The notes beneath the pieces were generated by a model, which was not told the DNA's origin, did not search any database, and worked only from the letters and a program-made list of their open reading frames with translations. Shown one piece after another: positions 12,234 to 45,392 of a stretch of 64,000 nt of DNA. The position numbers and the translations under genes are program-made. Position 1 is the first letter of the stretch; every line of letters begins with the position of its first letter. Origin of the DNA: Pseudocercospora fijiensis CIRAD86 (lineage: Eukaryota > Ascomycota > Dothideomycetes > Mycosphaerellales > Mycosphaerellaceae); NCBI RefSeq assembly GCF_000340215.1, contig NW_006921532.1, positions 649,844 to 713,843 on the forward strand. Direction: 5' to 3'.

Positions 12234-13227
12234 TTTTGATTGATGAGAGTGTTGTGATTAAAAACAATGGGCCAGAAAATTGGCAGTGGTCGAGAAGTGC
12301 AATTGAAGGAATGTGGGTAGTTTGTTGGTTGGAGTGCGTGTAGGATCGAAGCAAAAGTGACAAGAGACTGGCCGTTGGTCATATACCTACCTTTCTACAT
12401 CGTATTACTTGCGTGCTTTGCTCCGGATAGACGCGTAGCCATCGCGAATGATGTGCATGACCGCGAAGCTTGTAGATCGGCGTCTTCGGCAAGGGAGATC
12501 TTGCAGCAAAAGATCAAGCTAGACACCGATAGCTTGAAATGACATCCTTCTCCTTCATCAAACCTCGGAGGAGTGCAGAGTGAGAAGGTTGACGAGCCTA
12601 CCAATGATAGAAGGCGTCGTTGTTTAAGGCGCCACTGAGGTGTAGTTGACGACATGAAACGCAAATGCGACTCGCCGAAAGTGGTAAGACGCAAGACCAC
12701 CTTGAGTCGCAGATGACTACTTTGGGTAAAGACGTAAGATTTTGATGTGTTTGTAAAGTGGAACGACAGTTGACGCTTTCGGGCGACGGCGTTGTTTTGA
12801 AGCTCTGCGCATTATTGTCAGCTTGCACGGAAAAGGACATCACACTGGAGGGCTAGCTTCCGACATGAAATGCGAACAGCAGAGCCATCGCGACTTCCTC
12901 GCTTGTGACCGCTGCTGAATTTGTGGTCATCAGTTCTCCAGTGCAAGAGTGTTTGCATTCGTGCCAGTGAACGGCCAAGCCATCTTGTGAAGCATCGTCG
13001 TATGCTTATGATTGTGGCGGAGGGCTGGGAGGGCACGTTCCAACTGTTGCAGCGGATGTGGTGTGTGAAAAGGAGGCGCTCCTTAAAATAGGCTCAGGAC
13101 GGAGCGGTCGCCGAAGACTTGTCGATCACAACTCGGTGTCGTTTCATCATCAACTCGTTTGGAGCCGCATGCTGAGATGATACGAAGCTCGATTGCTTGG
13201 AGCCTCTGGCAGTGTACGTCTCCGATT
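12234..13227. other. Intergenic region between the secreted-protein gene and the transposon
   Basis: About 1 kb with ordinary composition up to the transposon boundary at 13228, holding the promoter of the secreted-protein gene. Several 60-100-codon ORFs on both strands show no domain. A short motif, gacatgaaaYgc, occurs near 12651 and 12863. Nothing else is supported. Confidence 0.45.
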
Positions 13228-13241
13228 AGGGACCTTCAGAA
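13228..13241 (+). repeat. Left terminal inverted repeat of the Harbinger-like element
   Basis: agggaccttcagaa, matched at the right end by ttctaaaggtccct with one C/T difference. The preceding ATT (13225-13227) is repeated after the right end. Confidence 0.75.
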
Positions 13242-13619
13242 ATGGTCAACCTGGCCACCGGCTTCCAAATAAGCGCTAGCTTGTAACCGTTAGGTGAAGG
13301 ATTAATATAGCGCTTTTTACGGACCTTTAGAAGAGGCCAATTAGTATGTAATTGAAAGCGGTTTAGTATAGTAAGGAGCCCCTGTTCTAGACCTTCTAGG
13401 AGTATAGACCTCAGCTATAGACCTATAGACAGTATAGTATACTAAACTATAGAAACTAGAGCGATTATAGTTACTATAGCTACTACAACGGTCGTTACTA
13501 TTACGAGTAAATACCTCGAGGAAGATAGTAGTAATAAGGACTAGTAGGCGTAGAGGGAGGGTAAATAATAAATCTATACGTAAATAGTAGTACCGCTAGT
13601 TAAGGCGTAACCGACTATT

Positions 13620-14727
13620 TAAACCGGCGAGAATATATAATAAATAGCGCTTCGACCTTCTTAGTTATCCGGAGGCTAATATTAAGGGTAACTTCCGCTT
13701 TATAAGGCCTAAATTAATAGAGTTAGTAGACCTATTAGATATTAGTTTAATCGTATTGCTAGTTAGCCTTAAATTGCTACCTATAATAGTACTTTATATT
13801 GTCTATAAGCGGCTGTCTAGTCTAGGCTTCTAGAAGGATATAGATAAGAAGTTTAGCTATTTAGCTACTATATTAAGTTATATATTTAATACGGTAGTAT
13901 ATAGCCTAGCGCTAAAGTAGAAGTCGTTCTTATTCTTTAATAAGAGGCGGCTTAGTAAGCAATATCTCCGGAGCCTAGCAGAGTCGCTATATCTATTAGT
14001 TAGAGTGTCTAGTGTCTTCGGATATATAGATAGCACTATAAGGAAGATTGCGAGACCTAGTCGCAACTAGAGGGTGTTCTATAATAGCTATAAGCACTTC
14101 TATAGCCTTAAATTCTAAGGTATATAGCTACCGGATAGAATACTGCTTATTAATAGCCCTTATCCTAGCTCTTACGGCGATAGTCGACTAGTACGCGAGT
14201 CTAATATTAACTAGGTATAGCATAAGTTGTTTAATAACGACCCTATCGAAGACAAGCTCTTTCTCTTTAGTAACTCGGTATATAGACAGGTTAATAGCAT
14301 TATTAGATCGTAGAAGTCGAAGAGAGGCGGCTATCGTAACCTTATATAGGCGCAGGTTACGAAGGAATAGTCGGCTCTACGACAGTCGGTCGAATAGGGG
14401 TTTAGTAAGATAACTAACAACTAGCTATTCTTCGAGTATAAGAAGGGGCTACGGACTAGTTTAATGCCGATAGGGTCCTGCTATTTAGTAGCAGTGTTAC
14501 TTACTAATTGCCTATCTTACTATCGTAGAAACAAGGTCGCTACGTACTACGGTTTAAGATATCTAGATACTAGAGATTACTTAGGTACTAAGCTGCTACC
14601 TATACCGCTAGTAGGTATAGAAATGCCGGATCTAATGCGTACAAACCCTTCTAGTAATAGATTAGAGGTTAGAAGTAATATAGAAGACATAGGGGAAGTA
14701 GTTATTAATAATAGTAATAAAGAATAG
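13620..14727 (+). pseudogene. PIF/Harbinger-type DDE transposase, RIP-inactivated
   Basis: One reading frame, interrupted almost only by TAG/TAA, carries the DDE_4-type nuclease pattern: FGYIDSTIRKIARP with the first Asp near 14020, RVFYNSYKHFYSLKF, LPDRILLINSPYPSSYGDSRL with the second acidic site, and EYKKGLRTSLMP before the C-terminal helices. The last stop-free piece is 14464-14727. Several Gly codons read Ser or Arg (GGN to AGN) and several Gln/Trp codons read stop, as RIP predicts. The stop at 14725-14727 faces the end of the minus-strand ORF about 50 bp away. No active protein is possible. Confidence 0.8.
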
Positions 14728-14773
14728 TAAAGAATAGCGATAGATTAGTAAGGAGATAATATCTAACTCTTCC

Positions 14774-14806
14774 CTATCCTCTTATTAATACTCGGATTAG
14801 ATACGG
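14774..14806 (-). pseudogene. C-terminal tail of the Harbinger minus-strand ORF
   Basis: When element A and one copy of its aagag duplication are removed, the minus-strand frame from 28091 continues here for about ten codons (PYLIRVLIRG) to a TAG at 14776-14774. That stop could be the true end or a RIPed Trp codon. Confidence 0.6.
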
Positions 14807-14811
14807 AAGAG

Positions 14812-14999
14812 TATTACGATATAACACTATTATATATACGATAGTAGGTAGCGGTTACTATCGACCGCTACGGTTGCTATTACTACTAATAGTAGGACTA
14901 TTATATAGATAGCTTGCCTCGCGGCACCTTAGAGAATATATTAACCTTTGTACTATATAACCGTTACGATACCTTCGTACTATAACCGTGTACCTAGCA
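14812..14999 (+). repeat. 5' LTR of element A (188 bp)
   Basis: It starts TATTACG (TG RIPed to TA) and ends CTAGCA. It differs from the 3' LTR at about 17 sites; every difference I could find is a transition, mostly with the mutated state (TA) in this 5' copy. Confidence 0.88.
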
Positions 15000-15039
15000 A
15001 CTTAGTAGCTTCGCTTAATACTTAGTTAGCTTCTATACT

Positions 15040-18000
15040 AACTACTAGTCCTCTATCCGAATCGACCCTAGTTATTACGGCTACGACGAGAATCGACGCG
15101 ATTAGCTATAGGTCCTACCGATCTTCCGCCGATTACTACGATTTAACTCCTATCCGTTACGACGGTACCTATTCGATTTACTACCCTTCCGCACTATACC
15201 CTACCGACGCGCGAGCGCCTTATCGGCAATCCTATTAGTACCCCGAGGAGATAGTAGTAGTAGTTTCTACCTTTAGTAGTAATTGCCTACTATACCTAGG
15301 TCTAGGGGTAGCCGCTTTCCCTAGGAGGACCTGCCCGATAAGCTACGCTCCTCCGCCTTTAGTCGGTTCTCTATTATTATCCTCCGTTTAGAGACTATCT
15401 CGCCTCTACCCTCTTACTAATAGTTTACCTGCTTACCGTAGCTCCTTCGGACTCGCTTCTAACTCCGGTAGAAGCCTCGAAATTAGCTAAGCTAGCGGTT
15501 TAACCGCTGCCCTAGTACTACAATCTCGGATTGCTAGATATAGAGCCCTATATCCTACGTATCTGTTCCTATATTTAGAACTACGTCGATTATAGCGAGA
15601 ACTTCGCAACCTAGCTTAGGGCAAAGTACGGCCGAATCGACTTACTTACCTTATACGTTCTATATTATTACCCGCTCGTAGGAAATCCGCCGCCTCTATA
15701 GGCTAAAATCGAGGAACTCTACCTAGACGCCCTTAACGGTTATAACTTCCTAGGATAGTAGATAGTAGATAAAGGAATTCTAACTAAATCGGTTAAGGAG
15801 CTTAAAGCCGCGCTCCTAACGGTGCGCGATTTACGCTATTACCGTTAATTCTACCCGGAGATCTATCTACTACCTATAGTAGAGCAGCGCCTACTAGCCT
15901 AACTGCCTTAAGTTCTACTACGGCCTACGGTTTCGCCTATTACTATAGTAGAAATAACCGTACCGCCGGAATAGCGTCCTAGTTCGCCTAATAGCTCGCT
16001 TAAATCGGTTTTCTTACGGAGGCTACTTAAGCTACGATACCCGGCGGACGAGAATCCTTAGAAGCTAAGGGGGCCTCTATCTACGACTTCCCCTAAGGAA
16101 CTATTAACTAAGCCTTCCGATCTGTCGACGTCGCCGTTCTAGGACATCGGTCGCGGCTAATTGCCTCTAATAAACGACGGCCTTACTAACCTATAGGCTA
16201 ACGAGCCGCGTAGTCGTTTCTAATATCGTACTCCGGTAGATGCCTCGTAGACAACCGAGGAGATCGATAGGGCGAATATCGCTATATAACAAAACTATTA
16301 GCGTTATAATTATCTTCGCGAATTAGCTAGACAGAGAGGAGTCTATCTTAACGAAGTCGTATTAGACTTTCTAATAGAATAGGCGATTTTACTGCTATTA
16401 GCTACGCGTAAGCTAAGTCCGCCCTAGCCGAACCTAGGTTAATACGATTACTAGTAGAGGGCAGACATATATATAAATGCCCGTAGGTATAGCTGCTTGC
16501 GTCGGGGCGGGTTTGCGCTAGGCGATCTGCCTAGCAATCTACCTAGTAATTCTCCTAGCAATCTACCTAGAAATCCTCCTAACGATCCTCTACTACTACT
16601 ACCTAGTAACTTCGATCTAGGTAATTCCTCTCGTAAGCCGGCGTAGGGTTAGCCTTTGCCCTTTCCGCTATTAGACTTATAGGGTCTACTATAGGAAGGC
16701 AAGAAGCAACGCTAGAAATACCGTCGGTATAGGGATAATCCGAGTAAGGATAGATCTTTATCTAATAGTAAGGATTCGGACGACTCCGATTAATCCTCGT
16801 CGGATAACAATAGCTCCTTAGATGCTAGTTATTATAGATACGCCCGCCGTCGTAGATACCGTTAGTATTATCGGGACTACGTTACGGAAGCGCTAGTTTC
16901 TAAAGCGAGTTATGTCTAGGGGCACTACGCCCGCCCCTAGTAGCTACAATTCGATCTAGCGTATCTTAGGTTCTTCGATCCTCTACTTAGCGTTATAGAT
17001 TATAGCGAGGGAGACTACGCCTTAGTTAGGAACAAGATAATATACCGTTCGGTATATACTTTTATCGAAGTAGCTAAGGATTATACTTATATCGTAGGGC
17101 AAGAGACAGTTCGTCTTAACCTCTCTCTTTACTTTCGAGGGGTAGCGCTTAGTTAGTATTATAGTTACCTTTCTAGCTACAACCGAGCAAAGCTCTACGG
17201 CGGATACGGTCTAAAGCGCTAGGAACGTTGTCTTAGTAAGAAATAGAAGGTCCCTCCGATAAAGGCAATAGATCTCCTTAATAAGTAACGCTATAACTAG
17301 TAGGATATCGCTTTAGGGCATTTAGTAACAGACTTTATTATTAAGACGGTGCGACTCGCTAAGAATACTAGCGTACGGAAATCGAACTAGCTCTTAGAAG
17401 CTTACCGTCGAATAGACCCGCGCCTCTAATTAAATATAGACGAGCTAAATCGTCGTATAAAGGTCGATAAATAGGTTACGCACTACGAGAAGTAGGTATT
17501 AATCTAGGAGTATATACTTTCGTCCTCGTCTAATTGTCGCTAAGACGCTACGACTAGGAACAATAGCTGCGCTAGTAAGGCTGCCTAGTAGAACCGATAC
17601 GAAGGGAACGCCTCTTATACTCTAGCGAGCTTCGCTCTAGTAAGAGTATCCTCTAACTACTAGAACCGCGATATCGACCGACCGAACCTACTACGCCTTA
17701 CTAACGCCTATTAGTAGAATCGCCTGCCTAACGCCTCTTAGCAGAATCGCCTACTACTAGTAGGAAATAGTAAAGGACTATTAAAGGGTAGTAGCTCTAC
17801 CTTCTTCCCGAAAGACCTAAAGCAAGTCGATTCGCGCCTATTTAATCGATAGAATAGAAAGTGTAACAATCGAGCTCGTAAGTAGGCTAACTTTGCCGAT
17901 AATAGTAAGAAAGCAGGCGATATCGTAAATAATACTAACTAAGCCGACGACGGCTATTAGGAGGATAGTTAGGAGGATAATAGGAGAACTAACGTAGATA

Positions 18001-21000
18001 ATTATAGCTATTTTAGTAACGCCGGAGAAGACGCCGACTACTTTACTAACCTATACAACTCCGATTCGGGCTTAGGAGCTTACTTTATAGATATAGGCGA
18101 CTACTTACTATTAGCGTTAAACTCGGTGCTATAGGCTAAAGCGTCCCTACCGGCGGCGATCTAACTATTTGTCTCTACGAAGTACGCTTACAAGGTCTAT
18201 AGGCGGCGATTTAAGTTAGGTAACCTTCTATACTAGTATATTCGTAAGAAGTATATAGGGGCGACGACGCCTTCTACTATTATCGAACGCGTATTAGCAA
18301 ACCTAGAAGTAATTTAGTCGAAGGCGCCTCCGTTAGCTTAGTAAGGTTACATATTCCGGAATTAGCAATATATAACTTTCCCTCTTTAGTTGTTACTATC
18401 CGGTACATCTATATAGGTCTGCCTAGATACTAGCTATACGCTTACTATTGCGGAAAAAGACTTCGTTTCAAGCTATTGCCTAGACGTAGAGGTACGCAAG
18501 CTACGCGAACTAATCGAAATCGGCGGTATTACTAGCGTATATCGCTCCGGGGAATACGTCGTATTAGATATGTTTATCCCGGTAGCGAAGACAGACGGTA
18601 TAGTCTCCCTAGTACGAATAACTTGTAAGGTTTACCTAGTTCCTAAACTAAAGGCAAAAATCCTAGTTAGTATAGATACGATTACTCTAGAGGGAATAGG
18701 GATCGATATTCCCGTATAGACGGTTACCGTAGCTAGTTAGAATAACGCCCGCTTTAAAGTAGCCGTTAAGCGTAAGAAAGGGAAGTCGGTTTAGCGCCCT
18801 ATAAGGCTAGCGGAGGACGTAACATTAGCGCCGCGTACGGTCGCCCTCGCGCTAGTTAAGTATAGTAGTAACTTCCCTAAGGGCCGGGATTTTATTCTTA
18901 ACGCTAGTTTCTTAGTCTAGCTAACTAGCAATATATAGGGATTGTCGTTACAAGCTCCGCCGTTAGTAATAGCGCATAATCAGGTCGTAGACGCTAATTT
19001 TTCTTATATATATATTCGTAACGATGCGACGACTCTAGTAACGATTCGAGCTAGATAGCTACTCGGTTCGTTAAGTAATAGGACTATTGCTAGGGCCTAC
19101 TATATCGACGTAGCCGACTACGGACCAGCAGGATTGAGTCCTAACGCTTTTACGGCTACGCGGGATATGCTAAATGTATAGCGGGAATACTAGTACGCGT
19201 TAGGCGTAACGATCTATAGTAACGATAACTAGGTAGACTAAATCGCTATAGCGGTCGAGCGGTATCTAGAGCTTTTTACAGATCGCTAAACAGTAGTCGA
19301 TATTCCCGAGTACGATTACATACCTATCCTAACTGTACTAAATTACCTAGATCTATTACTGCCCCCCTATATAATTAACCTAGTTAAGAGGGATCGTAAA
19401 GTAGTAGACAAGATATATAACGACCTATACCGCTAGGGGAAGATATAGCATATAACCGAGCCTACGCCCTTCGGTTTTCTAGTGTTTGTCGTATAGAAGC
19501 GCGTTACTAACGGTAAAGGTAGTATAATTAATAAGCCGCGGGCAGTAGTCGATATACGCGCCTTAAATAAGGTAACGATCCCTAACAGCTATTAGATACC
19601 GCTCTAGGCGGATCTCTTTATATAGTTAGTAGGGTGCTAGTATATTAGTACTATAGACTGTCTAACCTTCTTCTACTAATAGGGCGTAAAGCCGGAGGAT
19701 CGTTATAAATTAACGATTAATACTTATCGTAGCTAGGAACAGCACAAGGTCGCTATTACAGGATATTCGAATAGTGTCTAATTCGTATAGCGGAAGCTAG
19801 ATTAGATCCTTCGCGACTGTCGTAGCTTTACGCGGGCGTATATCGACGATATCGTAGTGTTTTCGTAGACGTTGCCTAAGTATCTCGATTATCTAGAAGC
19901 GGTTTTCTAGAGATTAGACGCCGTAAGGATTAGCATTAGTCCGAAGAAGACTTTCTTAGGCTTCCTCTCTGCGACCCTTTTAGGTTAGTACGTTAGCGGC
20001 CTCGGTCTAGCTACGAGTAAGGAGAAAATTGCAGCGATTACCTTACTTTAGTTCCTAGAAAACGTATAGAAGCTAGAGTATTATCTCGGTCTAACTAATT
20101 AGTTGCGGCAACACATCCTATACTACGCGTAGATAGCGGCGCCTCTATAGGCGGAGAAAACACGCTTATTAAAAGAGGCGCTAGTTACCGGCAATAGTCG
20201 TCGCCGGTACGTCGCCGTTACGACGCTAGATAAGAACGATTAGCACCGTAACGAGCTAGTAAAAGCGTTTCGCTTGTTATAATCGATGTTCTACGAGCCC
20301 TCCTTCCTATACTATTTCGACCCTAACTATCGCTTATACGCTAATATAGATTCCTCTAAAGAGTTTAGCTATAGCGCAGTGCTCTACTATATCGATAGGG
20401 ACCTAGACCCTATTCTATCTAAAAGAAAGGCGCAGTTGTTTCCTTACTATAAGGTTTAGCCTATTCTATTCTTAAGCTAAGGCCTAACTTAGGCAGAGAT
20501 ACGATATTAGCTAACAGAGCTCGAATACTCGGGAATTGTATAGATAGTAAAGAAGGTAGGCTATTTAATATATACTTTATTAAGGCCGACGACTATCTTT
20601 ATAAACTACTATACCGCGGTCGGTCTTACTAACTCGGTATCGATAACTATAACTACCGATATAGGTAAGTAGAACCTAAAATTAGTAAGGGTATCGATGT
20701 TCCTTTCCTAATATCGAGTTAATATAGTTTACCGTCTAGGGCGGATATACCTAGTTCTAGACGCCCTTAGTCGACTTCTAGAGGATATAGAGTCGCCTAA
20801 GTTAACGCCGGACGAGGAGAACTTAGACCCGCTCTCTTACTATACCGACGTTACGCCCTCTTCGGCCGATCTAGAGGAAGTAGCCTACTTCTATACGATA
20901 TTAGTAGAGCTAGATCCGGATTTCCGACGTTAGTTAAACCGAGCGTACGATAACGACGAACATTAGTCTAGGGTTTTACGACTAGTTCGATAAGCGTAGG

Positions 21001-22560
21001 CGCGGAATACTTTAGAGCGTCTCTATTCGAAGAGAGCTAATATACCTTCGGTAACGAAAACGCTAGTTCGGTATAAGGGTAGCAAAAATCCGGACCTATT
21101 CGTAGGTAATAAGTTTAATAGTCCGCTAGGTATTCGATTCTTCGAAAGGGACGGCCTCTTATATTTCTATAACTAATCTTTAGGGCGTAAGCGACTCTAT
21201 ATCTCTTAGGCCTTAATAGGCGAGATCTTCGAGTAGGCTTACGATAACTGTTGCTACTAAGGCTTTTAGCGCGTCTTCGACCGCATTTAGGCTTCCTTCT
21301 TTATATATCGACTCGCTCGCTACCTTCGCCTCTATTTAGATTATTATTACTAGTATCTCCTTTTACGTACCCTCTAATACGCTCCTTACGGCGAACTTTA
21401 CCCGATCTAGAATATAGAGGGCCTATACTATACTATAACGATAGATCTCGTAACCGCCTTGCCGGTTACGACCGATAGATTTAATATACTATATACGATT
21501 ACTTATAAGACGTCTAAGCGGGTAGCAGTCGTTCTAGGCAAAGAGGACTAGAAGGCCTACGACTAGGGCATCGCTCTAATCGATAGGCTTTACTTAATAG
21601 ATATAAGTTTGCCGGTAGTACTTATCGCTAATCGTAATCCTCGCTAGCTAAGCGACTTCTTTAAGAGCGTTTTCTCGCGCCTATATACGAAGCTAGCTAC
21701 GTCTACGGCCTACTACCCTTAAACCGATAGTTAATCCGAGCGGACTAACTAAACGGTCGAGACGGTAATTCGTTACTAGTTAGCGGATTATCCTAGCGAG
21801 GATTAGACGACGTTTATCCTATAGCTATAGGCTACGCTTAATAACTCCTATAATACGACTACCGGTTAGTCGCCGAACGAGGTTGCTACGGGCGTAAGAA
21901 CGAATCTCGACTCGCTCGATATACTATACGACTATCCGTATAATAGGGCGGTAGCGCGTAGTCGTATCTAGAAGGAAGTCTAGGATGCGATTACTTAGGC
22001 GAACGTAAAAATAAAAGAATAGTATAATAGCAAGTATAAGCCCCTATTCCTTAAGCTAGGTAACTATATTATACTTCGCCTATACTATAGTTACGAAGGG
22101 CTAGGTTAGTCGTACAAGTTTAGCTACTGTTTTAAAGGGCCTTTTATAGTTCTCGAGAAAGTCGGACGACTAGCCTACTATCTCGAGTTGCCGCTATTAA
22201 TACGTATCTATCCGGTAATATCGGTTTCGTAGTTAGAAAAAGCTCCTAAAGACCCGGATCCTTTTAAGAGAACTATTAATTACAAGCCTCTACCTATCGT
22301 AGCTAAGGATAGTCTAGGTTCTAGCGATAAGGGCGATTCTTACGAAATCGAGCGCTTTCTCGGGCGACGGACCGTCGTCTAAAGAGGCTAGCCTGTTCTC
22401 TAATACCTAGTAAAGTAGAAGGGCTATAGGAGCGCCTATAATATATAGTATAATATCGACGACTTAACGGGCGTAGACGATCTACGCAAAATCTACGATA
22501 ATATATACCCTCTAGAGGAGGTACTACTATCCCGTACCCTCCGTAGGGTAGTAAAGCGGA
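15040..22560 (+). pseudogene. gag-pol of element A with C-terminal chromodomain, RIP-inactivated
   Basis: The gag region (about 15040-18150) includes a low-complexity PSNLPSNSPSNLP stretch near 16530-16600. The protease LDTG-type site near 18425 now reads LDTS. The reverse transcriptase spans about 19400-20050 and keeps YIDD (19839-19850). RNase H follows (about 20300-20480), then the integrase core (about 21400-21800) and the C-terminal module, ending in a chromodomain (YEIERFL at about 22341, YLVKWKGY near 22410). Stops are almost entirely TAG/TAA at Gln/Trp positions, so the frame can be followed for long distances. This matches Ty3/Gypsy chromoviruses of fungi. Confidence 0.82.
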
Positions 22561-22899
22561 CGAGAGCTCGCTAGCCTTTTTTAGAGGTTACTAGCTCCGC
22601 CGATAAAGGCGAGGCTAGGCAATCCCTCGCAGTTCGTCGTAAATCGATACGACTCTGCGGGCCTGCGGCGCGACTCCTCCTTTAGAATTGTAATCTACCT
22701 AGGCGTACTCTTATATCGTTATCGTAACTACGTTACTTAGGCAACCGTTATATATAGACGCGGGCTATTCCTTATTTAGTATCGATCTTTCCGGCATCCT
22801 ACGATAAGAGAGCTTTCTATTAATTACCGATAACGAATAGAAACGGACCTTAAGCGCGAGAACCGCGTCCGCCGCGGGGATCGTAAAATAGTAGCTTTT

Positions 22900-27885: not shown

Positions 27886-27897
27886 AGAAAGGGAGGC

Positions 27898-28085
27898 TAT
27901 TACGATATAATACTATTGCATATACGATAGCAGGCAGCGGTTACTATCGACCGCTACGGTCGCTATTGCTACTAATAGTAGGACTATTATATAGATAGCT
28001 TGCCTCGCGGCACCTTAGAGAATGCATTAACTTTTGCACCGCATAACTGTTACGATATCTTCGTACTATAACCGTGTGCCTAGCA
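27898..28085 (+). repeat. 3' LTR of element A (188 bp)
   Basis: The same length as the 5' LTR and aligned to it without gaps. It keeps more CA/TG than the 5' copy, for example gcaggcagcgg here against gtaggtagcgg there. Confidence 0.88.
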
Positions 28086-28090
28086 AAGAG

Positions 28091-29218: not shown

Positions 29219-29223
29219 ATCTA

Positions 29224-29420: not shown

Positions 29421-29639
29421 TAGTATTCGATCTACCCTTTAAGGGCAGTAGCTAGATAGTTCTTATTTTAAGCTTTTAGCGGTATAGCTACGAATAAGAC
29501 TAATCTAACTATATTACGCCCGAAGAACGGGACCTATACGTACTATTCTATCGAAACAACCGTACTAATTATTAAGCAAGGCCTTCTATACGGCCTATTA
29601 CACTAAGTTAAACATGCTAGACCGGTGTCTACTAATTCC

Positions 29640-32600: not shown

Positions 32601-32885
32601 CAAAACACAAGCCGCTTTTAACGGTCTAAAGAAACGATTTACTAAAGTCCCCTTATTGTACTATTTCGTACTAAGTAAGTAGATCCGAATTAAGACTAAC
32701 GCTTTACAGTTCGCTATATCGGCTATTATATTATAGCAATTAGATAATAACTATTACTAGCACCCGATTGCCTTCTTTTTACGAAAGATAATCGATATAG
32801 AACGTCGATATAAGACCTACGAGTAAGAGCTCTTAGCAATCGTAGAAGCCTTTAAGCATTAGCGCTACTATCTTAATAGTGCTTA
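29640..32885 (+). pseudogene. gag-pol of element B, 5' part (gag to RNase H), RIP-inactivated
   Basis: gag starts in the region 29640-29680 and contains short V-P-A/T-K repeats (about 29766-29830) and an RNA-binding Arg/Gly-rich region (about 30670-30830). A CCHC zinc knuckle at 30905-30946 has lost its second Cys (Cys to Tyr), its His (to Tyr) and a Gln (to stop), all RIP changes. The reverse transcriptase spans about 31720-32250 ([19 protein letters not shown]), with the catalytic box read as YLDN at 32233-32244. RNase H (AIVEAFKH) is cut at 32885 by element C. 31723-32097 is the longest stop-free part. Confidence 0.85.
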
Positions 32886-33193
32886 TATAAGAACCTGAGC
32901 AAGTAAAGTCTCCTATCCTGCCTTAGCAAGCCTATGTAACAATTATGTAATGTTATTACGTATAGTACGATACAGCCGCGCTAGCGATAAGCTTGCTTAG
33001 CGTATACGCGTAATGCTCGATTACTCGTACGGATATACTCGGTAGCCGGTACGGCAGATATGCTATCCGTACTAGGCCTAGTTAATAGTAGTCGCTCTGC
33101 CCTATTCTAAGAAAGGCACAGTTTAGTTCTACTTTCTACTACGGCGATTAGTAGAGGGTATTCTATACGTTGCTATATACCTATTTTCTTATA
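32886..33193 (+). repeat. 5' LTR of element C (308 bp)
   Basis: It starts TATAAGAACC (from TGTAAG) and ends TTCTTATA (from TTCTTACA). All differences I could find from the 3' LTR are transitions. Confidence 0.9.
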
Positions 33194-33659
33194 GTTCTAA
33201 ACCGTCTACCCTTCGTAGCGGCCTATAGAACCCCGAAAGATAAACGCAAGCGATCCGAACGCGCCGGGCGCGGGAAACGCGTAGAATAATACATTAGGAG
33301 CGCCTATAGTATTAGAAAACGACGCGGCGATATAACAATACGAGGCCGAATATTAGGCGCGCCGGGAAGCGACCCGCCTACGGCTCGAACGATTTCTAGC
33401 TAAGTAAGAAGTGCTTAGGCTAGAAGTGTAGGCTTAAGAAGCTAAGCGAGAAAATGCGCGTCTTTGTACCCTTAGGGACGTAGGCGATGCGCTAGCTCCG
33501 AGTAGCGGTACCGCCGGCGAGGGTCCTACGATAACCCTACCTCTAGGCGACGACGACGATAAGGACGAGGAAGAATTAGCTAACGAGTCGATTTAGAGGC
33601 CTGAATCTTAGAGAGCTAAATCTGTCTCGTATCGACTACCTCTTTCCGGAAGTGCGCTA

Positions 33660-36600
33660 AGCGTAGCCCCTATGCCTAGTATAAGCTACGCAGTCGCTAG
33701 TCTTGCGGCTATTAAGCCTCGCCTAAAGGAACCTAAGCCCTTTAAAGGCGATACGATTAAGGAGTCGAGGCGATTCCTTCGAGAACTTTCTATTACCTTT
33801 ATACTATCCGGAGCTACCTATTATACGGACGAGAGCAAGGTGCTTTATAGTATTATATACCTCGTAGGCGATATATAGGAGCGATAGTATAATAAAAACA
33901 GCCTTAAGGACCTATAGAATTATACCTACTAGGACTTTAAAACCTTCTATCGGGACTGCGTCGGGGACCCTATAAACCGTATACTAAACGTAACCCTCGA
34001 GTATAAGGCGGCCCGTTAGCGTAAGGGACAGTTAGTCTAAAGCTTTGCCCTTAAGCTCGCAGTGCTCGAAGATTAACTTAGCGACTATAGCGAGGAGTAT
34101 AGGATCCGCTATCTCCTCGTTAAACTCTAGCCGGCGATTCGTAGCGCGATTATTAAATACTATATAGTGCTAACGACGCGTTACGAACTCGTAGAGCTTG
34201 CGACGCGTATCGAGACCCCTAATAAGCCGTCTAGCAAACGCAAGGATCGTAACTACGATAAAACCGGAGGTAGCAAAGGTAAGAAGCGTCGATCTAATAG
34301 TTAGGCCCGTAAGTAGCAGTTAAATCGCGACCGTAGCGTAGGCGGAAAGCATACGAAGGGCGATAACTCGTAAGGCAGGTATAATATTAGCAAGGTCGAA
34401 TGTTATAGCTGTCGTTAGAAAGGCTATTACAAGAACGCGTACCCGAACCGCTATCTCTAGAAAGACGACAACCCTACGGTACGCAAGGTAGCCGCTAACG
34501 CTAAAGAAAAGAAGAACGACTCGAAGGCTAAGGGAAAAGATAAGGCACCTCCTAAGAGCTAGGGATAGGTACGGAATCTTAACTAAGTAGCTTAGTAGTA
34601 GTAGTACCTACGGGACGCGTACGCGGAGCAATTGTTACGTAAGAAGGGGAAGTGTCCGTCGAATGCTTATTAGATAATGCTGCTAATATTAATATAGTAT
34701 CTTAAGAATTCGTTCTACGATACTAGCCTTAGCGGATTGTTAACGCCGTACTGCCTAGTACCGATAGTTTCTAGGGCGACCGAGGATACTACTACGGAGC
34801 GCATTATCTACGCTTACGGATCGCCGACTCTATAGGCTAAGAACGTATTACTACCGGAGTGTTCTACGCTTTCGAAATGCCCCTCCCTAATATCATTCTT
34901 AGTAGGCCTTAGAGGCGCGATTAAAAGGTAATCGTCGATAGCTCGACGGATGCCTAGACCTATAGGAACGAAGCTATAGCGCGTTCGATACGCGTACGGG
35001 AACTATAGGAATTCTAGAAGGATATACGTAACGCCCTATACATATATGCGATTAGCGTTCGCTAGCTCCGCGATATCGCTAAGGGTTCCTCCTTACTAGA
35101 AGAATTTAAAGACTTCGAAGACGTCTTTATAATAATGCCCGAAGCGAGGCGCAAGCTCCTCGAAGACGTAGAGTATACGATTAACCTAATCCCCGGAACG
35201 AAGCCGCTATATAAACCTCTCTACTATTCTTTAGGAAGAGAGCTTAGCGACCTTTGTAATTACCTAAGCTTAGCCTTAGACAACGATTAGATCTAGCTTA
35301 GTATAAGCGAGGCGGGTACGCCGATCCTATTCGTACTAAAGAAGGATAGCAGTCTAAGACTCTACGTCGATTATAGGGGGCTAAACGAGATTACTATCAA
35401 AAATCGTTACCCCCTGCCCCTTATTAGCGAAACGCTTAATAGGCTTAAGGACGCCGAATAGTATACGTCCTTAGACCTCTAGGATGTATATTACCGTATT
35501 TGTATTAAGCGGGGCGACGAGTAGAAGACTACGTTCCGTACGCGGTACGGGCACTTCGAGTATAAGGTAATGCCTTTTAGGCTTACTAATGCTCCTACTA
35601 CGTTTTAAGGATACATTAATAGGGCGTTAGCTAGCCTAGTTAATATTTGCTGTATCGTCTACCTTAACGACATCCTCGTCTATAGCAAAACGCGAGAGGA
35701 CTACGTACGAGACGTACGCGCTGTCCTTACGCGGCTTAGAAAGTTTGCATTATATATAAACAGAAAGAAATATTCCTTTTAGAAGAAAGAAGTCGAATTC
35801 CTTAGGTTTATCGTTAGTACCGAAGGCGTATCGATAGATTAGCGTAGGGTAAACGCTATTAACGAGTAGCCTCGCCTATTAACGCTAAAGGAGGTTTAAT
35901 CCTTCCTCGGATTCTATAACTTCTACCGGAGGTTTATCCCTAATTACTCCCGGATCGTTACACTACTAACCGCCCTGTCGAAAGGAGCCGTAAATAGCCG
36001 AAAGCTAGGGCAGGTCCCGTAGGGCGAAAGCGAGGAGCAAGCGTTCCGCTAGCTAAAGGCTGCCTTTAGCTCGGCCTCGATATTACGACACTATAATCCT
36101 ACGAAGCCCCTACGTATCGAAACCGATACCTCTACGTTTGCCTTAGTAGGAATTATATTACAATAGAGCGAAAATAGGAATTGGTACCCTATTGCCTTCT
36201 AGTTACGAAAAATAGTCCTAGCCGAGACTAATTATAAGACCTATAACTAGGAGCTCCTAGCGGTTGTCGAGTCCTTTAAGCATTAGCGCCCGTACCTCGA
36301 TAGCGCCTAGTATACGACCCGCGTAGTTGTCGACTACGCTAATCTTAAGGGCTTTATAAAGATAAAGTAGCTTATTAGAAGGTAGGCAAGATAGGCAACC
36401 TTCCTTATATCTTTTAACTTTACTATTAAATATCGGGCTAGTAAGCGAAACCTAGCCGATACGCCTTTACGACGTAGCGACTACGAGAGCAAGTCGTAGG
36501 CGGTAAACAACCTTCTCCCTATATTATAGTCGAAACTAGCTCTATAGTTAAATCTGCCCGAGGATATCGAGCCGATTATAAAACGCATCTCTATTATATA

Positions 36601-38260
36601 TATAGGGATGCGAGACGCTAGTGCAGCGCTAGCGGAACGCAAGAGTTTTATTAGCAGTCCTATAAGAGTAGCGGCTACTATCGTTAGGAATAACGGGCCC
36701 TACTACGAGACACCTAATATAATCCTTAGTTTCGTACGCACTTTATAATAGCTAGAGCAAGCGAGAGGAGGAGGCTTATACGAGACAAGCTTACCGGCGG
36801 GTAGCTTAGCCTCGTTAAGTAGTTCTAACCTCCCGCCTAGCTATTCTCGTCGTAGTAACCTTATTTACTACGGCGATGCGCTATATATCCCTAAGGACTA
36901 CGTATTGCGTATGCAACTAATACGCATATACTACGACGACCCTTTAGCTAGACACTTTAGTATAGCTAAGACTATAGACCTAATACGCCGAAAGTACTTC
37001 TAGCCGAAGATAGCCGAGGATGTTACGGCCTATATCCGTACCTATAGAATTTGTTAACGGTCGAAGGCGAAGCGCTATCGCCCCTATAGAGAGCTCGCTG
37101 CTCTACCTATACCGACCCGACCTTAGTAAGAGTTAACAATAGACTTTATTACCGATCTCCCGCCGAGCAAGCTCGGCGCCTACGTATATACTACGATCCT
37201 CGTAATAGTCGACCGCTATACGAAGATAAGCCTCTTTATCCTAACGACGAAGAAGTGTATAGTAGTAGAACTCGCGGATATCCTTTAAAGGGAGGTAATT
37301 AGACGTTTTAGAGTGCTATTAGGTATTGTTAGCGATCGTAGATCGCTATTTACTAGCTAGTTTTAGAGCGACTTCTGCTTCGAAGCGTATATAAAGCGCA
37401 GGCTTAGTATAGCCTTCTATCCTTAGACTAATAGGCAAACCGAACGCGCGAACTAGACCCTCGAGCAATACCTACGATACTATTACTCCGAGAACTAGGA
37501 TAATTAGGCTAAACTATTGCCCTAGGCAGAGTTTGCCTATAACAACAGCGTTTATCCTGCGTTACGTATAAGCCCCTTTAGGATGCTCTACGGCTTTAAT
37601 CCTAATTTAATGCTAAGGTAAATAAGCTGCTAGCTCGGGACGAGCTAACTAAGGGAAGGGCACTAGCAGCTATCGACGCTGCGGAGCGACTATAGAAAGC
37701 GCATAAAACGCTTACGGAACGCTAGCAGAAAGTAGCAGAATACTAGGCTAAGCAATACAATACATACTATACTACTAAGACATATAGTATAGGCGACTTA
37801 GTCTTACTATCGATAAAGAACATTAGCTTAGATGTCCTAAAGAAGAAACTTAGCCCGAAGTATATAGGGCCTTTCCGTATTATTAACGCAGTTAGAGCGT
37901 AGGCGTACCGCCTAGCACTACCGTCAAGTACGAAGATCTACAATGTTTTCTATATTTCCCTCCTCGAGCCTTAGTATAGGCGCGATAGCGAGGAGTATAA
38001 GATAAGTATACCTATCGCTAAAGGTAACGAGTAGTAGGTAGAAACAATCGTAGTAAAGAAGATAAAGAAGCGGAAGGCGTACTACCTTATTAAGTAGCGA
38101 GGTTAGCCTAAAGAATACAACACTTAGGAGCTAGCTATTTATATTAAAGATTCTATAGCGTTAGACGAGTTCGAAGCTTAAGCGAAGCGCAAGCGTAGGT
38201 AGTAATTAAAACAAAAGAAAATAAGACTTAAGAAAAAATAGTAGACACATACTCGTTTCG
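33660..38260 (+). pseudogene. gag-pol of element C, RIP-inactivated
   Basis: gag begins near 33672 (LKEPKPFKGD, typical of fungal Gypsy gag). The zinc knuckle at 34401-34443 has lost its His and last Cys to Tyr, with a stop inside. The reverse transcriptase (about 35320-35830) has its catalytic box read as YLND (35660-35671). RNase H, a zinc-binding integrase N-terminus, the integrase core (LTIDFITDLPPSKLGAY near 37135) and a C-terminal part (IGPFRIINA, NVFYISLLEP) follow. A chromodomain-like region lies near 38040-38170. Near 37615 the frame shifts by an indel, which RIP does not explain. Confidence 0.82.
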
Positions 38261-38340
38261 CTACTAAAAAGGGCCTATCGGCCTAATATATATACAGATA
38301 GCGCCGCGTAGGCGCGGCGACGGCGGGCCGCCTACCCTAC

Positions 38341-39000
38341 TTATCGTTATCCTCCTCTTCGTCCTCCTCTTCGATACCTATAGCGGCATCGATAGTAGCG
38401 ACGGCGTTAGCGCCGACGCGCTAAGCGAGGTTCTAGTGCGGTTAGTATGCGAAGCGTAAGTAAAACGAGGCTGCGGGAAAAAACTATACCTAACGACCGA
38501 TCTCTACTAAACTAGCTAGGTTAGTACCGATATACTCGAGCGTACTAAGCAAGTTAACGTCCGTAAGGGACCCGCTAGCGGCCCTCTTACGGGCTAGGGC
38601 TTTGCCGCCTAGGGTTACCTTATTCTTATTAGTATAAAAGACGTTAAGCGTAGATAGGATAACTAACATCGAGGTTAGTATACGGAGCGCAAGCGAAGCG
38701 CGTACGAAATATACGTACGACGACGGAGTCTAACTCGGCCTAGAGTGCCTCTAAGGCCTCGTCCGACTCCTCGACGGAGTCGTAGCCGTCTAGGTTATAC
38801 AAGTCGCGCGCGGAGCGCGCGGCGCGAATGCGGGCTAGTAGCGAGACGAGGGAGCGTACCGTAATAGGAGTATAGGGGTAATAGCTGCTATAGCAGCGAT
38901 TATAGTTGCGCTTAGTAGCTAGGTCTATATTGCCGCCTATATAAAGCTTAGTTAGGTCTACTAAAGCGAGTTAGTTACGAAGCGCATACGCGTAGCAAGT
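38341..39000 (-). pseudogene. Antisense ORF in the 3' region of element C, unknown function
   Basis: The minus strand between the chromodomain and the 3' LTR carries protein-like text in at least two frames: a heptad-like acidic segment (YDSVEESDEALEALQAELD, about 38730-38790) and a C-terminus ending in a very acidic tail (EEEDEEEDNDK) with the stop near 38341. Stops inside are of the RIP type. The two parts may be exons or may be offset by an indel. I do not recognise the family. Extra antisense ORFs are known from some plant Gypsy elements, but that does not identify this one. Confidence 0.45.
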
Positions 39001-39571
39001 AGCGAGAAAACGTACCGTTAGCTGTTATATGCTTAAAGTAACGAGTGTAGCCCTTTAGGACTTTTAGGGGGCGCTAGGCCGGCGTAGTAGGCGTCGTAGG
39101 GCTAGCGCCTGCGGCGCGCTTGCCTGCGGTACGCGTAGGGGTAGATATGCTAGTAATGTTTTTTTTTAATAGATATTTAAAAAAGAAAAATCTTTAAGTA
39201 ATACTAGGGGGGCGCGAGGGCAGAGTAGGCGGGGCGTAGGCGTATAGTGTTCGGAGCGCTTAGAAAAAGAAGAAGTTTTTAAGCGGGCTTCGAATGCTTT
39301 AAATACTCGCCTCGCTTTCGGATAGCTTGCGTTCTCGCGTAGCTACCGCGTTCTTAGAAATTTAGGCAACTTCTAGTTAGTACTAGAAGCAGCCGCGCTT
39401 TAAATCTATAAACAAATAAGCAACTACGAGGCAGATCGTAACGTGCCTAGCAACTATAGCGTAGCAACAGATGCGTATAAGGTGCGTATATATAGCGTAG
39501 AGTATAAGAAATAGTATAATTTACTATATTGCCCTATAGCTAGGATAGCTATACTAGGGGAAGGAGATAAT

Positions 39572-39879
39572 TGTAAGAACCTAAGCAAGTGAAGTCTCCT
39601 GTCCTGCCTTAGCAAGCCTATATAACAATCATGTAATGTTATTACGTATAGTACGATGTAGCCGCGCTAGCGATAAGCTTGCTTAGCGTATACGCGTAAT
39701 ACTCGATTACTCGTACGGACATGCTCGGTAGCCGGCACGGCAGATATGCTATCTGTGCTAGGCCTAGTTAATAGTAGTCGCTCTGCCCTATTCTAAGAAA
39801 GGCACGGTTTAGTTCTACTTTCTATTACGGCGATTAGTAGAGGGTGTTCTATACGTTGCTATATACCTATTTTCTTACA
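39572..39879 (+). repeat. 3' LTR of element C (308 bp)
   Basis: It starts TGTAAGAACC and ends TTCTTACA. It has the same length as the 5' LTR and aligns without gaps. Confidence 0.9.
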
Positions 39880-39884
39880 GCTTA

Positions 39885-41973
39885 GTATACAATTTAGGTC
39901 TATATAGACTATAACAACCGCCGTAGTATTACTAAGGTTACTAGGGTTATAGGTCGATAGGCTAGATAGGCCGTCTACCTCGCTAGGTTTGATTTTAATA
40001 TATTATACCGGCTAGGCGTAAGTAACCCTACCGATAGCCTATCGAGGCGACCTAATTACGATAGCGAGACCTAATATATTAATTCTTTGTTTCTAACCCT
40101 ATAGTATAAGATTGCTATAGCCCGTATTGTTAATAAGCAAGCGTAGGATAAGCGGACTTCCGGACCCCGCGGCGACAACAAATACTATAGCGGAGTTATC
40201 GTTCTTCTAGTATACGTTAAAAGAAAGGACGTAGATCGCTCGAGCTATAATAACTCGATTAAAGACATTGCTATCTATAGTAATAGCCTATATAGCGACA
40301 GCACTATAGAAGAGGTTATAGTAGTTCCGGCTACTAGTACTATTAGATATATATAATGCGTACCTCGTTCGATAGCACGGGTACTATTAAATAACCTTGC
40401 AAATAGGGATAGTTAATCGTTTATAGATAAGCTATTGCGTGCTTAGTAGAGGGACGCCTTTGCTATCGAGCGTATTAATAAGCTTGTAAGTAGGCGGGCG
40501 ACTCGATCTAGTAAGAGTAATAACAATTAGTCGATCGACGACAAAGGTTACTTAAAGTTTAAGGGTAGGTATTATATCCCCGCTAAACAATCGATTAGAT
40601 AAGAGCTTTTAAAGAGGCACTATAATAGTAAGCTCGCTAGTTACTATAGTATAGAGAGGTCGCACGAGTTACTATCGCGCACATACTACTAGCTAAATAG
40701 TAAGCGGCATATAAAGGAGTATATACAGACCTATGCAGTATACTAGCGAGTTAAAGCACTAAAGCACTTACTATTTAGCGAGTTGTCTTCACTTCCTGTT
40801 CCTAGGAAGCTATTTGCTAAGCTTATAATAGACTTTATTATAGGCCTTCTGCCTGCTAAGCGCAGGGGCAGCAAGGATGTATATAATGCTATCCTTATTA
40901 TAGTAGATCGATTTACTAAAGGCGCTCGATATATCCCGGCGCGTAAGGATTGGACTGCTATTAATATAGTAGAGTCGCTATAGACTAACATCTTCTACAC
41001 CTATTAGGGGACCCCTAAGGGGATAGTCTCCGATAGGGGTACGACATTTATATCGCACTATTAGAGCGAAATATGCCTATAGCTAAGACTAAAGCATCGG
41101 CTATTAACAGCCTTCTATCTATAGACTAACGGTTAAACAGAGAGGCAGAATACTACCCTATAGCAGTACCTACGCAGTTATATTAATAAGAACCCCGAGG
41201 ACTAGGTTAACCTCCTATAACTAGCTAAATTCGTATACAATAATAGTGTCTACTTATCTACTAAGGTCTCCCCTTATTTTGCTATAATAGGCTAGAACGC
41301 TGCCTTACTATAAGACCTATTTACCTCGCTCGAGGCCGAGCGCAAGGAAAGGGAAGCGTATTAAGTACTAATACCTAAGACACTAGCGGCTATTAAGAGG
41401 GTTCAAAAGATGCGAGAGATTTACGCTAAGATAGCTAACAAACTAGCAAAGGCCTAGGCCTATTAGAAGGCCTATTACGACAAACATTATATACCGATAA
41501 CCTTTAAGTAAGGCGATATAGTTATGCTAAGCACTAAGAACCTCCGTATCCGCAAGCACCTATTACCTAACAGTAAAACAAGGCCTAAGCTCGCACTAAG
41601 ATACATTAGTCTATTCCGTATTCGAGAAGTTAAGGGCTCCTCCGTATAGGCCTATTAGTTGTAGCTTCCTCCTTATTATACTATCTATAACACCTTCTAT
41701 ATATCCCTCCTTAAGCTATATTACCTACGCGAGGGGGATAAAGCCCCTACTAAACACGAAGACATACTAGCGGATAGTAAAGAGCTATAGTCTATAGAAC
41801 GTATCCTATAGTACTAGACTAGGAAAGGCAAGAAGGAGTACCTATTAAGATAGCAAGGCTATTTACCTAAATAGGACTCGTAGGAAGCTAAAGCCTCTTT
41901 TAAAGATATAACTAAGTTGTTAGATAAGTATTAGACTAGTATAAAGAACAAGAAGAAGGCTAAGGGCCTATAA
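39885..41973 (+). pseudogene. gag-pol of element B, 3' part (end of RNase H, integrase, chromodomain), RIP-inactivated
   Basis: It continues the RNase H frame cut at 32885. The integrase zinc region and core lie at about 40560-41300 (LIIDFIIGLLPAKRRGS, ILIIVDRFTKGARYIP, IVSDRGTTF), partly in the stop-free stretch 40783-40983. The C-terminal module includes HLLPNSKTRPKLALRYI, and a chromodomain-like end (ERIL, KKEYLLR) precedes the stop at about 41971-41973. Positions 1-815 of the window are the same part of a sister copy. Confidence 0.83.
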
Positions 41974-43114
41974 TATCGCCTAGGAATAATGCTACCCCTA
42001 GGGTGCTGTTAGCTAACTAATTAGAGACAAGCAAGTGTTAGCAATAAAGGACAATAAGACTACACTAGGCGCGCTACGACGCGTTAATTAATTAATCGTA
42101 TACTCTTTTAAGGACTCTACCTCTTTACTAACGCGCCCTATAGGTCCCCCTCTTATTCCTTTATTCTATCGAGGCCTCGAGGCCTAGGCGATCGGCGAGG
42201 ACGGCGTCGCGCTTATAATAGCGCGGCCGGCGCGGCTATATTAGTAACGGTATTACCGAGTTGTTATTAGTTAAAGAAGGAAATTAGAAGAAGGTAAAGT
42301 TAGCGCTAAGACGACTAGCGCCGCTACTATTAATATTACTTGCTATTATTACTGCGCCTATAGACATAACCTTACCTATACTACGAGCCTAAGGCACCTT
42401 TAATCAAAACTTTAATCAAAACTTTAAGGCTAAGTTAAAACTTTAAGCCGCCTAAAAGATTGAGCAACTAATAGACTAACTAAGGGTAAAACTATAGAGC
42501 TAAGCTAGCCGGGGTCGATCTTACAGACAATAGGTTACTCCTCGATCTATCTAACTCTTTAAGCGAGGCGAACCTCTACTACTATACTTATAATAGCCTT
42601 TACCTATAGAAACTAGACGAGCTGTGTTTTTTCTAAAAAGATAAGATAAGATTAACAATTAAAGGCTGCTAAACCTAACTAATTAGGGCTAGCGAAACTA
42701 CGAACAATAATAGCCCTCGTAACAATAAGAACAAACCCTCGGAAGCGGATATAGCTAGGTCTTTTAGAGTAGACGTAAAGAACTCGGAACGATATTACTT
42801 AGAACAGAGGCAGGGCTGCAATACCTCGTACGTCTACCTATTATAGTAGGGAAGACGCGCTCGTATTGTAATTAGTCGAAGGTCCCTAATTCTCCTAGTT
42901 ATATATCACTTTATTATATATAAGGATAGCGCAGTTAGAGTTAGATATTGTATTGTGTTAGAGGTAAGGTTTGATATAGTTACATAATCGGTAATTGCGT
43001 GTTTAATTTAGCGCGGACTAAGAAGCTTGCTAGACCTGCTAAGTTAGTAGCGATAGAGGTTAAGAATAGAACATAGACCGGCTACGAGGGCGCGGCCTTT
43101 AGAAGGGAAGCGTA

Positions 43115-43311
43115 TATTAGGACTAAAGAGGTTACACGTAATTAGCATATAACTAGGCTCGAGTAAAGCTAGGGTCTTAATGCCTTAGGCAGGGCTTAGC
43201 GCTTAGCGTTAGGCTAACTAGCCTGCCTTCCTCCCTCTTCTCTTAGATCTCTATCGAATACTACCTATACCTACTACTACCCTATCTACCTACTAATAGA
43301 CCCTTCTTACA
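43115..43311 (+). repeat. 3' LTR of element B (197 bp)
   Basis: It starts TATTAGG and ends CTTACA, followed directly by the atcta duplication at 43312-43316. Confidence 0.9.
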
Positions 43312-43316
43312 ATCTA

Positions 43317-44060
43317 GTAGGCTTATAGTCGTTATACTACTTCTAATAGCGCTTAACTATATCTCGGATCCGACCTTCTATATAATAGCTAGTATTAGCC
43401 TCGAAGTGCTTAATAATTAGTAAGGCAAAATCGTCCGATATGCGGCTGTCGCTATTAACTCGATTATAGTCGTCTTCTACGCCTTCTAGTAGGTTAAAGT
43501 TGTGCTAAGAGTCTTTAGTAGCAGTAGAAGGCTAAGAGTCGCTTAAATCTAGTATAGGCTATTAGACTACAGCCTATTATTGTTGTTCCTATTATTGTTA
43601 TTCCTATTATTGCCGCTACCGCTCGAGGTAAGCCGTTAAAGAGGTATCTATACCTCTTTAAATAAGTTAAAATAACCGGCCTTAGTAGAGTTAAAATTAG
43701 TATCTAGTTAGTAGCTATACTGCTCTCGCTATCGCTATTATAGCTTAAATTAGTTAATAAGCTTGCTATAGACATAGAGCGACTATATAGTAGCCGCTTA
43801 ATAACCGACTAGATTAGAGGCAATAGACTTCCGACTAAATATAGCTATATTAAAGAGACATCTATATAAAGAGGGTTACCTCGTAGAGCTACTCGAATAG
43901 GTATAGGCGGTGCCTATAGTAGTAGGTAGACTAGAGTAGTAAAGGCTAGTATAGAAGAGCCGGAGCCTAGGTCGATAATACGAGAGGGATAAGAGAGGGG
44001 GTCTATAGTAGCTATAATCGAGAATAAGGGTAGTTATACTAATAATTAAAGACCTCTCCT
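43317..44060 (-). pseudogene. Harbinger minus-strand ORF, N-terminal part
   Basis: The minus-strand frame includes SDDFALLIIKHFEANTSYYI and RIRDIVKRY. It crosses the element B insertion site in frame (YNDYKPTR, then a RIPed codon, then RAIKGIDTLI). Further upstream the frame is too damaged to place the start. It is likely the DNA-binding partner protein of the transposase, by position only. Confidence 0.5.
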
Positions 44061-44545
44061 ACTTCTAAAGATAGCTCTTATCCTATAGACGACATACTAT
44101 AATTAATCCTCGAATTTAGGTTCTATCTAGTTAGTAGTAGCCCTTTAGCGGCCCCCTAGTAGCCTCTATTACTAATTATAATAACGGCTATATACCTAGA
44201 CCTTTATATATATAAGTTAGTGCCCTCTCGTACTACTATCTCGAAGACCTAATAGCTACTTTCTACCTCGCTATCGTAGAGCCAATTTGCCTTTAATAAG
44301 CTAAGCCGGACAGGGTTTAAGCTACCTTCTATATTCTTCTAATACCTAACTTCTTCTAGCTAAGGCAGGATTACTACCCCTACGAGTCGTAAATATAGTG
44401 TCTTATATGCTTTTAAACGCGCGCGTTTAAAAGCACGGTCTAAGGTCTACGAGTTGATAATTTACCCCTATTCAAACCGGCGGTCGAAGGATGCGGTACT
44501 AACCTTCGCATCCACCTTGTTCCCCGACTGCGCGAAATTGGTGGC

Positions 44546-44559
44546 TTCTAAAGGTCCCT
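44546..44559 (-). repeat. Right terminal inverted repeat of the Harbinger-like element
   Basis: ttctaaaggtccct, the inverse of the left end with one transition; followed by ATT at 44560-44562. Confidence 0.75.
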
Positions 44560-45392
44560 ATTAGAACTACTAGAACTGGGTCCTATCGCTAGAACGACAG
44601 GGCCGCGAAAACCCCAGGTGCAAATTAACGTATTCTCTCCGGACTCGCGTGCTGCCAACAATGGGGAGCGGTATTTGGCACTTCGTCAAAAGCTATGCTT
44701 TGAGCTTCCAGACGTCTGCACGCGATAGCCTGATGGCGTTCCAGCCCAGGATCCGCAGGGAATAAATGAGTGCATCTTCCCCTCTGGCCACCTGCCTCTG
44801 CCCACAGCACTACCTGTTGTTCCCCTCCCTTTCCAGAATGTTATGACAGCCCAGCTTGTCCTCTCGCAGCGACGTCTTTTCCCACAACGATCAAGTCAAA
44901 CATTGCCCAGATTTGTCGCAGAGAGCGACAGGACCTCGCCAAAATGCATTGAACCAAGTGAGGGGACAAGATCCGAAATGTGCACAGCAGTCCAAAGTAG
45001 ACGAAGACGAGGTCGAGGGGGTGTGATGTGAGAATGAATTCATTGGCGACTTTCAAAACGATACATATCCAGATTGGAAGATCGCTTGACCCATGTCTCG
45101 CCAAGCTTATCCGAAAACTCTAATCTTCTTCAGATCATGTGACTCTCACGCTCGCGATAACGCGAACCCGCATGCACGCAGTCCTAGAACCAATGAGTAT
45201 GAGACTCGAGTATTGGTGATGAATGACCGAGGACTCCAAATATCACTTCTTCCACACCTTTCAAGCCGTCGGCACTCTGATATCGCGGCCTAGCCAGTAC
45301 AAGCCAGCATGTCATTCCTTATCAGCTTTCCTGGCAGCCAACCAAATTGAACCAATGTCAGCTACGAAACGCCTATGGCTTGATGCTGATAG
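44560..45392. other. Region between the transposon and the permease fragment
   Basis: About 830 bp. The first 30-40 bp still look mildly RIPed (agaactactagaactggg) and then composition is ordinary. I searched for the missing N-terminal part of the permease and found no matching helices in any frame. No other gene is supported. Confidence 0.45.

Follow-up and report, generated by a model that had tools for sequence, protein, structure and literature searches.

The 64,000-nucleotide stretch of the Pseudocercospora fijiensis CIRAD86 genome analysed here (contig NW_006921532.1, positions 649,844 to 713,843; hereafter the window) contains a nest of transposable elements. A DNA transposon, the base element, carries two long terminal repeat (LTR) retrotransposons, A and B, inserted at separate sites, and a third retrotransposon, C, lies within B. 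The base element is probably of the Pangu type. The boundaries of all four elements can be placed to the base, and their order of insertion follows in large part from the nesting.

Architecture of the nest

The base element spans 13228-44559, as read from the window sequence. It is bounded by terminal inverted repeats (TIRs) of 14 bp that match at 13 of 14 positions, AGGGACCTTCAGAA at 13228 and AGGGACCTTTAGAA (reverse complement) ending at 44559, the sole mismatch being C/T. A, B and C each have an LTR pair and a short target duplication, as Ty3/Gypsy elements do (Table 1). The length of B is 7.09 kb after C and one copy of its target are subtracted, and the RNase H region of B is interrupted by C. 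The chance of a match is 1/1024 for a 5-bp duplication and 1/64 for a 3-bp duplication.

An earlier note on this DNA, made from the letters of the window, had described TIRs flanked by ATT, three equal LTR pairs (188, 197 and 308 bp) and 5-bp duplications within 13225..44562. All of these are present in the sequence, and the span, which counts both ATT copies, holds. The nest had also been called four-level; it does have four elements, but it is only three levels deep, consisting of the base, A and B as siblings within it, and C. The nesting shows that the base is older than A, that it is older than B, and that B is older than C. This supports the proposed sequence of the base first, A and B into the base, and C into B. 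Since A and B are siblings, the nesting does not fix their order relative to each other.

Table 1. Coordinates of the nested elements and their target duplications in the window
Feature	Position	Strand	Basis
Left ATT duplication of base element	13225..13227		sequence and ends of other copies
Base element (probably Pangu-type), 5' part; TIR 13228-13241	13228..14811	+	start common to other genome copies
Transposase broken by RIP, DDE_Tnp_4 match, stops read as X	14026..14508	+	profile match
Left AAGAG duplication of A	14807..14811		sequence
LTR retrotransposon A, 13,274 bp; LTRs 14812-14999 and 27898-28085 (188 bp each)	14812..28085	+	
Right AAGAG duplication of A	28086..28090		sequence
Base element, middle part; open minus-strand piece 28617-28952, possible second-frame remains	28091..29223	-	
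Left ATCTA duplication of B	29219..29223		sequence
LTR retrotransposon B; LTRs 29224-29420 and 43115-43311 (197 bp each)	29224..43311	+	
Left GCTTA duplication of C, within the RNase H region of B	32881..32885		sequence
LTR retrotransposon C, 6,994 bp; LTRs 32886-33193 and 39572-39879 (308 bp each)	32886..39879	+	
Right GCTTA duplication of C	39880..39884		sequence
Right ATCTA duplication of B	43312..43316		sequence
Base element, 3' part, closing with TIR 44546-44559	43317..44559	+	
Right ATT duplication of base element	44560..44562		sequence

The composition of all four elements is of the type left by repeat-induced point mutation (RIP), and it changes abruptly at either outer end of the nest, in agreement with the description of the nest as lying inside RIPed DNA. 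The TpA/ApT ratio is 1.83-2.05 within the nest and 0.54-0.62 in the 3-kb flanks, and the (CpA+TpG)/(ApC+GpT) ratio is 0.19-0.38 within the nest and 1.27-1.43 in the same flanks. On the left the shift occurs between adjacent 200-bp windows; on the right it takes one to two of them.

Domains are recognizable in all three retrotransposons. Above the Pfam cut-offs, A has a reverse transcriptase (19530-19961) and a Tf2-1-like SH3 domain (22101-22241), and B has a reverse transcriptase (31909-32394), the RNase H split by C, and an SH3 domain (41512-41721). C has a reverse transcriptase (RVT_1, 35336-35809), RNase H, the Integrase_H2C2 zinc domain and a Tf2-1-like SH3 domain (37792-37971), with integrase core and chromodomain matches below the cut-off; its reverse transcriptase and RNase H lie ahead of the integrase, which is the Ty3/Gypsy order. 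A survey of P. fijiensis reported 613 complete Ty3/Gypsy LTR retrotransposons (PMC3562529). Like the elements described there, A, B and C have LTRs, 5-bp duplications and heavy RIP, and a reverse transcriptase upstream of SH3 (and of the integrase where one was found). Compared with these elements as a group, and not with a named family, nothing notable differs. A also contains tandem 72-bp repeats (23137-23640), downstream of SH3 and within its longest listed open stretch (203 codons, 23068-23679).

The base element and its family

The base element has a match to the DDE_Tnp_4 transposase profile (PF13359) that covers profile positions 1-158 of 158 (E 2.4e-8) when stops are read as X. A search of solved structures gave two matches, E 0.2-0.3, to an unrelated gametocyte surface protein. 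Copies were searched for across the 73.9-Mb genome (30 contigs). The left-end query of 976 bases gave at least 42 matches and the right-end query of 1259 bases at least 46, the window and fragments being counted in both. Twenty copies were fetched with 10 kb each (labels L0xx below), and all 20 are of RIP-type composition over the stretch measured, which sets them apart from the published Pangu description.

The target duplications were read by eye from the printed ends of 16 copies, the window included, and of three more copies with ends 10-25 kb apart that were paired by contig, strand and position. The duplication is exactly 3 bp in all 19 two-ended copies: ATT in six, AAT in four, AGT and ACT in three each, and AAG, AAA and TAT in one each. 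Thus ANT is found in 16 of the 19 and TWA in none. Only the left end is visible in two more fetched copies. A 2-bp TA duplication was considered and rejected; it fits the 16 ANT copies, fails in the other three and leaves the matching outer bases unexplained.

The duplications listed in PMC4482050 are TWA for PIF/Harbinger, AT for ISL2EU, CWG for NuwaI, C|TNA|G for NuwaII and ANT for Pangu. The 2-bp AT of ISL2EU is not seen here, the duplication being 3 bp in every two-ended copy. Pangu elements, which belong to the PHIS superfamily, are described in the same source as having TIRs of 11-40 bp that usually start with AG or GG and a DDE transposase without other domains. Their second frame, present in most autonomous candidates, has no known motif according to its results section and Myb/SANT according to its discussion. 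The base element shares with Pangu the 3-bp ANT duplication, a 14-bp TIR starting with AG, and a DDE transposase as its sole recognized domain. As to a second frame, several copies have only broken candidates, open stretches of 110-141 codons on the minus strand, and the one in the window has no Pfam match. No Pfam match up to E 1 was found on the minus strand, three frames each, of the middle and 3' parts, and an open frame in L022 has two Pfam matches, both below threshold. The base element is somewhat longer, about 3.9 kb against a mean of about 3.5 kb reported in PMC4482050. Because its duplication, TIR and DDE-only features match the published Pangu signature, the base element is filed as probably Pangu-type. 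Confidence in this assignment, made by comparison with the published description, is good but not complete.

The earlier note had labelled it PIF/Harbinger. A canonical PIF/Harbinger transposon would also have a DDE_Tnp_4 transposase, a 3-bp duplication and a length of about 4 kb, and Repbase Harbinger2, classified within Harbinger, is Pangu according to PMC12730594, so that the difference is one of group, not superfamily. In its strict sense the label is nevertheless unlikely to be right, as none of the 19 duplications is TWA and 16 are ANT, as in Pangu. In addition, Myb/SANT had no match in the remaining broken reading frames, where RIP could mask one.

Copies of the base element are also mosaic in their resemblance to the window. 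In a comparison of 13 copies with window positions 13228-14811, 28091-29223 and 43317-44559, L010 is 92-100% alike as far as about position 300 in the middle part, beyond which the likeness falls to 59-89%. L021 shows the reverse, with 70-92% ahead of about position 900 in the middle part and 88-97% beyond, except for one 150-bp window (75%), and L015 is alike mainly in the 3' part. These patterns suggest recombination or gene conversion among subfamilies.

Empty sites and the assembly question

Copies elsewhere in the genome show the A, B and C sites empty. The base ends lie 3.88-3.97 kb apart in 13 of the 20 fetched copies, and a large insert is therefore absent from these; the other seven are interrupted or incomplete in the fetched stretch. 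Probes made of the flanks crossed the A site in 16 of the 20 copies and the B site in 17, each time with a single 5-bp target. Among 11 loci picked to contain the C site in B elements, seven are uninterrupted and four gave no spanning alignment.

The outer ends of the three retrotransposons recur in the same way. Searches with each end gave 183-2126 first-look candidates, and 40 full matches per end were scored. The outer edge fell within about 7 bases of the assigned LTR edge in all 40 matches at the 5' ends of A, B and C and at the 3' end of A; at the 3' ends of B and C a single match out of 40 fell outside this range in each case. Ends were then paired among the 40 best 5' and the 40 best 3' matches of each element. 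Among these best matches A formed 22 pairs: 17, including the window, at 13.08-13.55 kb, one at 12.7 kb, three at 20.2-20.6 kb and one at 37.1 kb. B formed 10, six of them at 7.14-7.15 kb against the predicted 7.09 kb and the rest, including the window, at 12.1-27.9 kb. For C, 30 of 32 pairs, including the window, were at 6.93-7.12 kb. The A pairs of about 20 kb suggest more nests, with an insert of about 7 kb. In a further base-element copy (L009:2887-10000; C1:6659865), where a B-family element occupies another site, the two outer AAT copies still agree across about 11 kb.

Assembly is difficult across repeats of 7-13 kb, and each of the four families has multiple copies in the genome, so the nest might in principle be an artefact in which unrelated repeat fragments were joined. 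This is extremely improbable. All four duplications are base-exact across distances of 7-31 kb, the segments have the same lengths as copies elsewhere, and the window is without any N. The exact duplications at every boundary thus argue against an assembly join.

It is highly probable that the locus as a whole is what it appears to be: a Pangu-type base at an ATT site, A and B inserted into it independently, C inserted into B, and all four hit by RIP. A Pangu-type cut-and-paste DNA transposon (PHIS, about 3.96 kb) would have entered an ATT site outside strongly RIP-mutated DNA. Ty3/Gypsy-type elements A (13.3 kb) and B (7.1 kb) would later have entered the base independently, each duplicating 5 bp, and a third Ty3/Gypsy-type element, C (7.0 kb), would then have integrated into B. 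Each integration presumably went through the usual machinery of its family, and RIP across sexual cycles would have brought about the mutations and the inactivity of all four.

Several observations weigh against this account. First, three of the 19 base-element duplications (AAG, AAA and TAT) are not ANT. Second, a protein-collection search with the X-marked transposase (P0001) gave 5862 candidates and no homologue at E <= 1e-5. Third, the RNase H of A is below the Pfam cut-off and an integrase core was not found in A by the Pfam profile search. Fourth, the integrase zinc domain (40588-40755) and integrase core of B are just or well below their cut-offs (24.3 against 25.5 bits and 18.6 against 32.6 bits), though the domain order is right.

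RIP, the insertion series and its meaning

The LTR pairs differ at 17 positions in A (11 in the CpA/TpG context of RIP), 12 in B (all 12) and 18 in C (15). All 47 differences are transitions, 38 in CpA/TpG and nine outside it, with no transversion in 693 aligned bases. The LTR differences thus record mainly RIP hits and not elapsed time. In the P. fijiensis genome paper (PMC4981457), LTR dating is considered less useful in fungi with RIP and all transitions are ignored; that method leaves zero usable changes in all three pairs. At the rate given there (1.09e-9 per site per year) and over two lineages, a single transversion between LTRs of 188 bp corresponds by our own arithmetic to about 2.4 million years, so LTRs this short are unable to date the insertions.

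The divergences could be taken as a usable series, A (9.0%) > B (6.1%) > C (5.8%), and this ranking is consistent with C being younger than B. Such a clock is improbable here, where every difference is a transition, mostly in RIP context, and where the nesting does not set the order of A and B. The earlier note had expected a datable insertion series. The series can be ordered by nesting; it cannot be dated by LTRs, because the differences are all transitions and mostly CpA/TpG.

Divergence of the base element is also mostly RIP-like, since the ten pairs formed by the window and four close copies differ by 152-186 transitions and only 3-8 transversions each. The 6-8 transversions of the window over about 3.96 kb, at the PMC4981457 rate and again by our own arithmetic, would place this divergence very roughly at 0.7-0.9 million years, an order of magnitude and an undercount since transitions are dropped.

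The target duplication of B may bear on when RIP acted. In 17 other base copies the B site reads GTCTA in ten and ATCTA in seven. In the window both target copies have the A, which is in CpA/TpG context in the left copy only, where it follows a T; in the right copy it is preceded by the terminal A of B's LTR and so lies outside that context. As the A is shared by both copies although RIP context is confined to the left one, it is most likely that G changed to A before B inserted and that the change was then duplicated. Two points weigh against this. The A is also present in two of the four closest copies (L011 and L024) and may be inherited, a matter on which the small indels shared within the group of five closest copies give conflicting answers. 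Moreover, nine of the 47 LTR differences are outside CpA/TpG, so the right copy may have changed later. That RIP had already mutated the base element before B arrived, and that target duplications in nests can time RIP relative to insertion, is therefore offered tentatively, at somewhat under even chances. The A site reads AAGAG in 11 of 16 base copies, AGGAG in three, AGGGG in one and AACAG in one; the target bases at the A and C sites are uninformative for timing RIP.

To the right of the nest, an amino-acid permease match (45417-46271) starts at position 147 of the 427-position profile. The N-terminal part had no match, either in the plus-strand frames of 44566-47000 or in 11000-13224 read in six frames. 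This may be a truncated gene. The ATT duplication is intact, which argues against deletion of the permease start by the nest. At the left of the window, positions 1-2600 hold a second strongly RIP-type, AT-rich stretch that ends near 2600; the adjoining reading frames we take to be P450-like.

Nests of this kind have been catalogued in a RIP-prone relative. For Zymoseptoria tritici, PMC4522978 reports 78 putative nested clusters of 7.5-63 kb, 33 of them longer than 20 kb, with a table of a subset in which the duplications were verified; some nests have DNA-transposon bases, as here, although the species and the elements are different. Nested insertion has also been suggested for fragmented copies in Pseudocercospora (PMC13041039). 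The claim of the earlier note that such a base-exact reconstruction inside RIPed DNA is rarely possible by eye is not supported by this comparison. The nest is genuine, with base-exact boundaries, yet ordinary for such a genome.

Literature searches on Pangu transposons, on fungi and on Harbinger in P. fijiensis returned no Pangu family described for this species. The survey in PMC3562529 reports one complete and five degenerate Harbinger elements, against at least 19 two-ended genome copies of this base-element family alone. The same source reports four in silico copies of Sagui; its published 20-base Sagui primer has 14 exact matches in the genome, and a backward control had 0.

The nest illustrates cleanly how transposons become layered under RIP, and it cautions against the use of LTR clocks in RIP-active fungi. 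A useful by-product is a many-copy, probably Pangu family in P. fijiensis with a marked preference for ANT targets.

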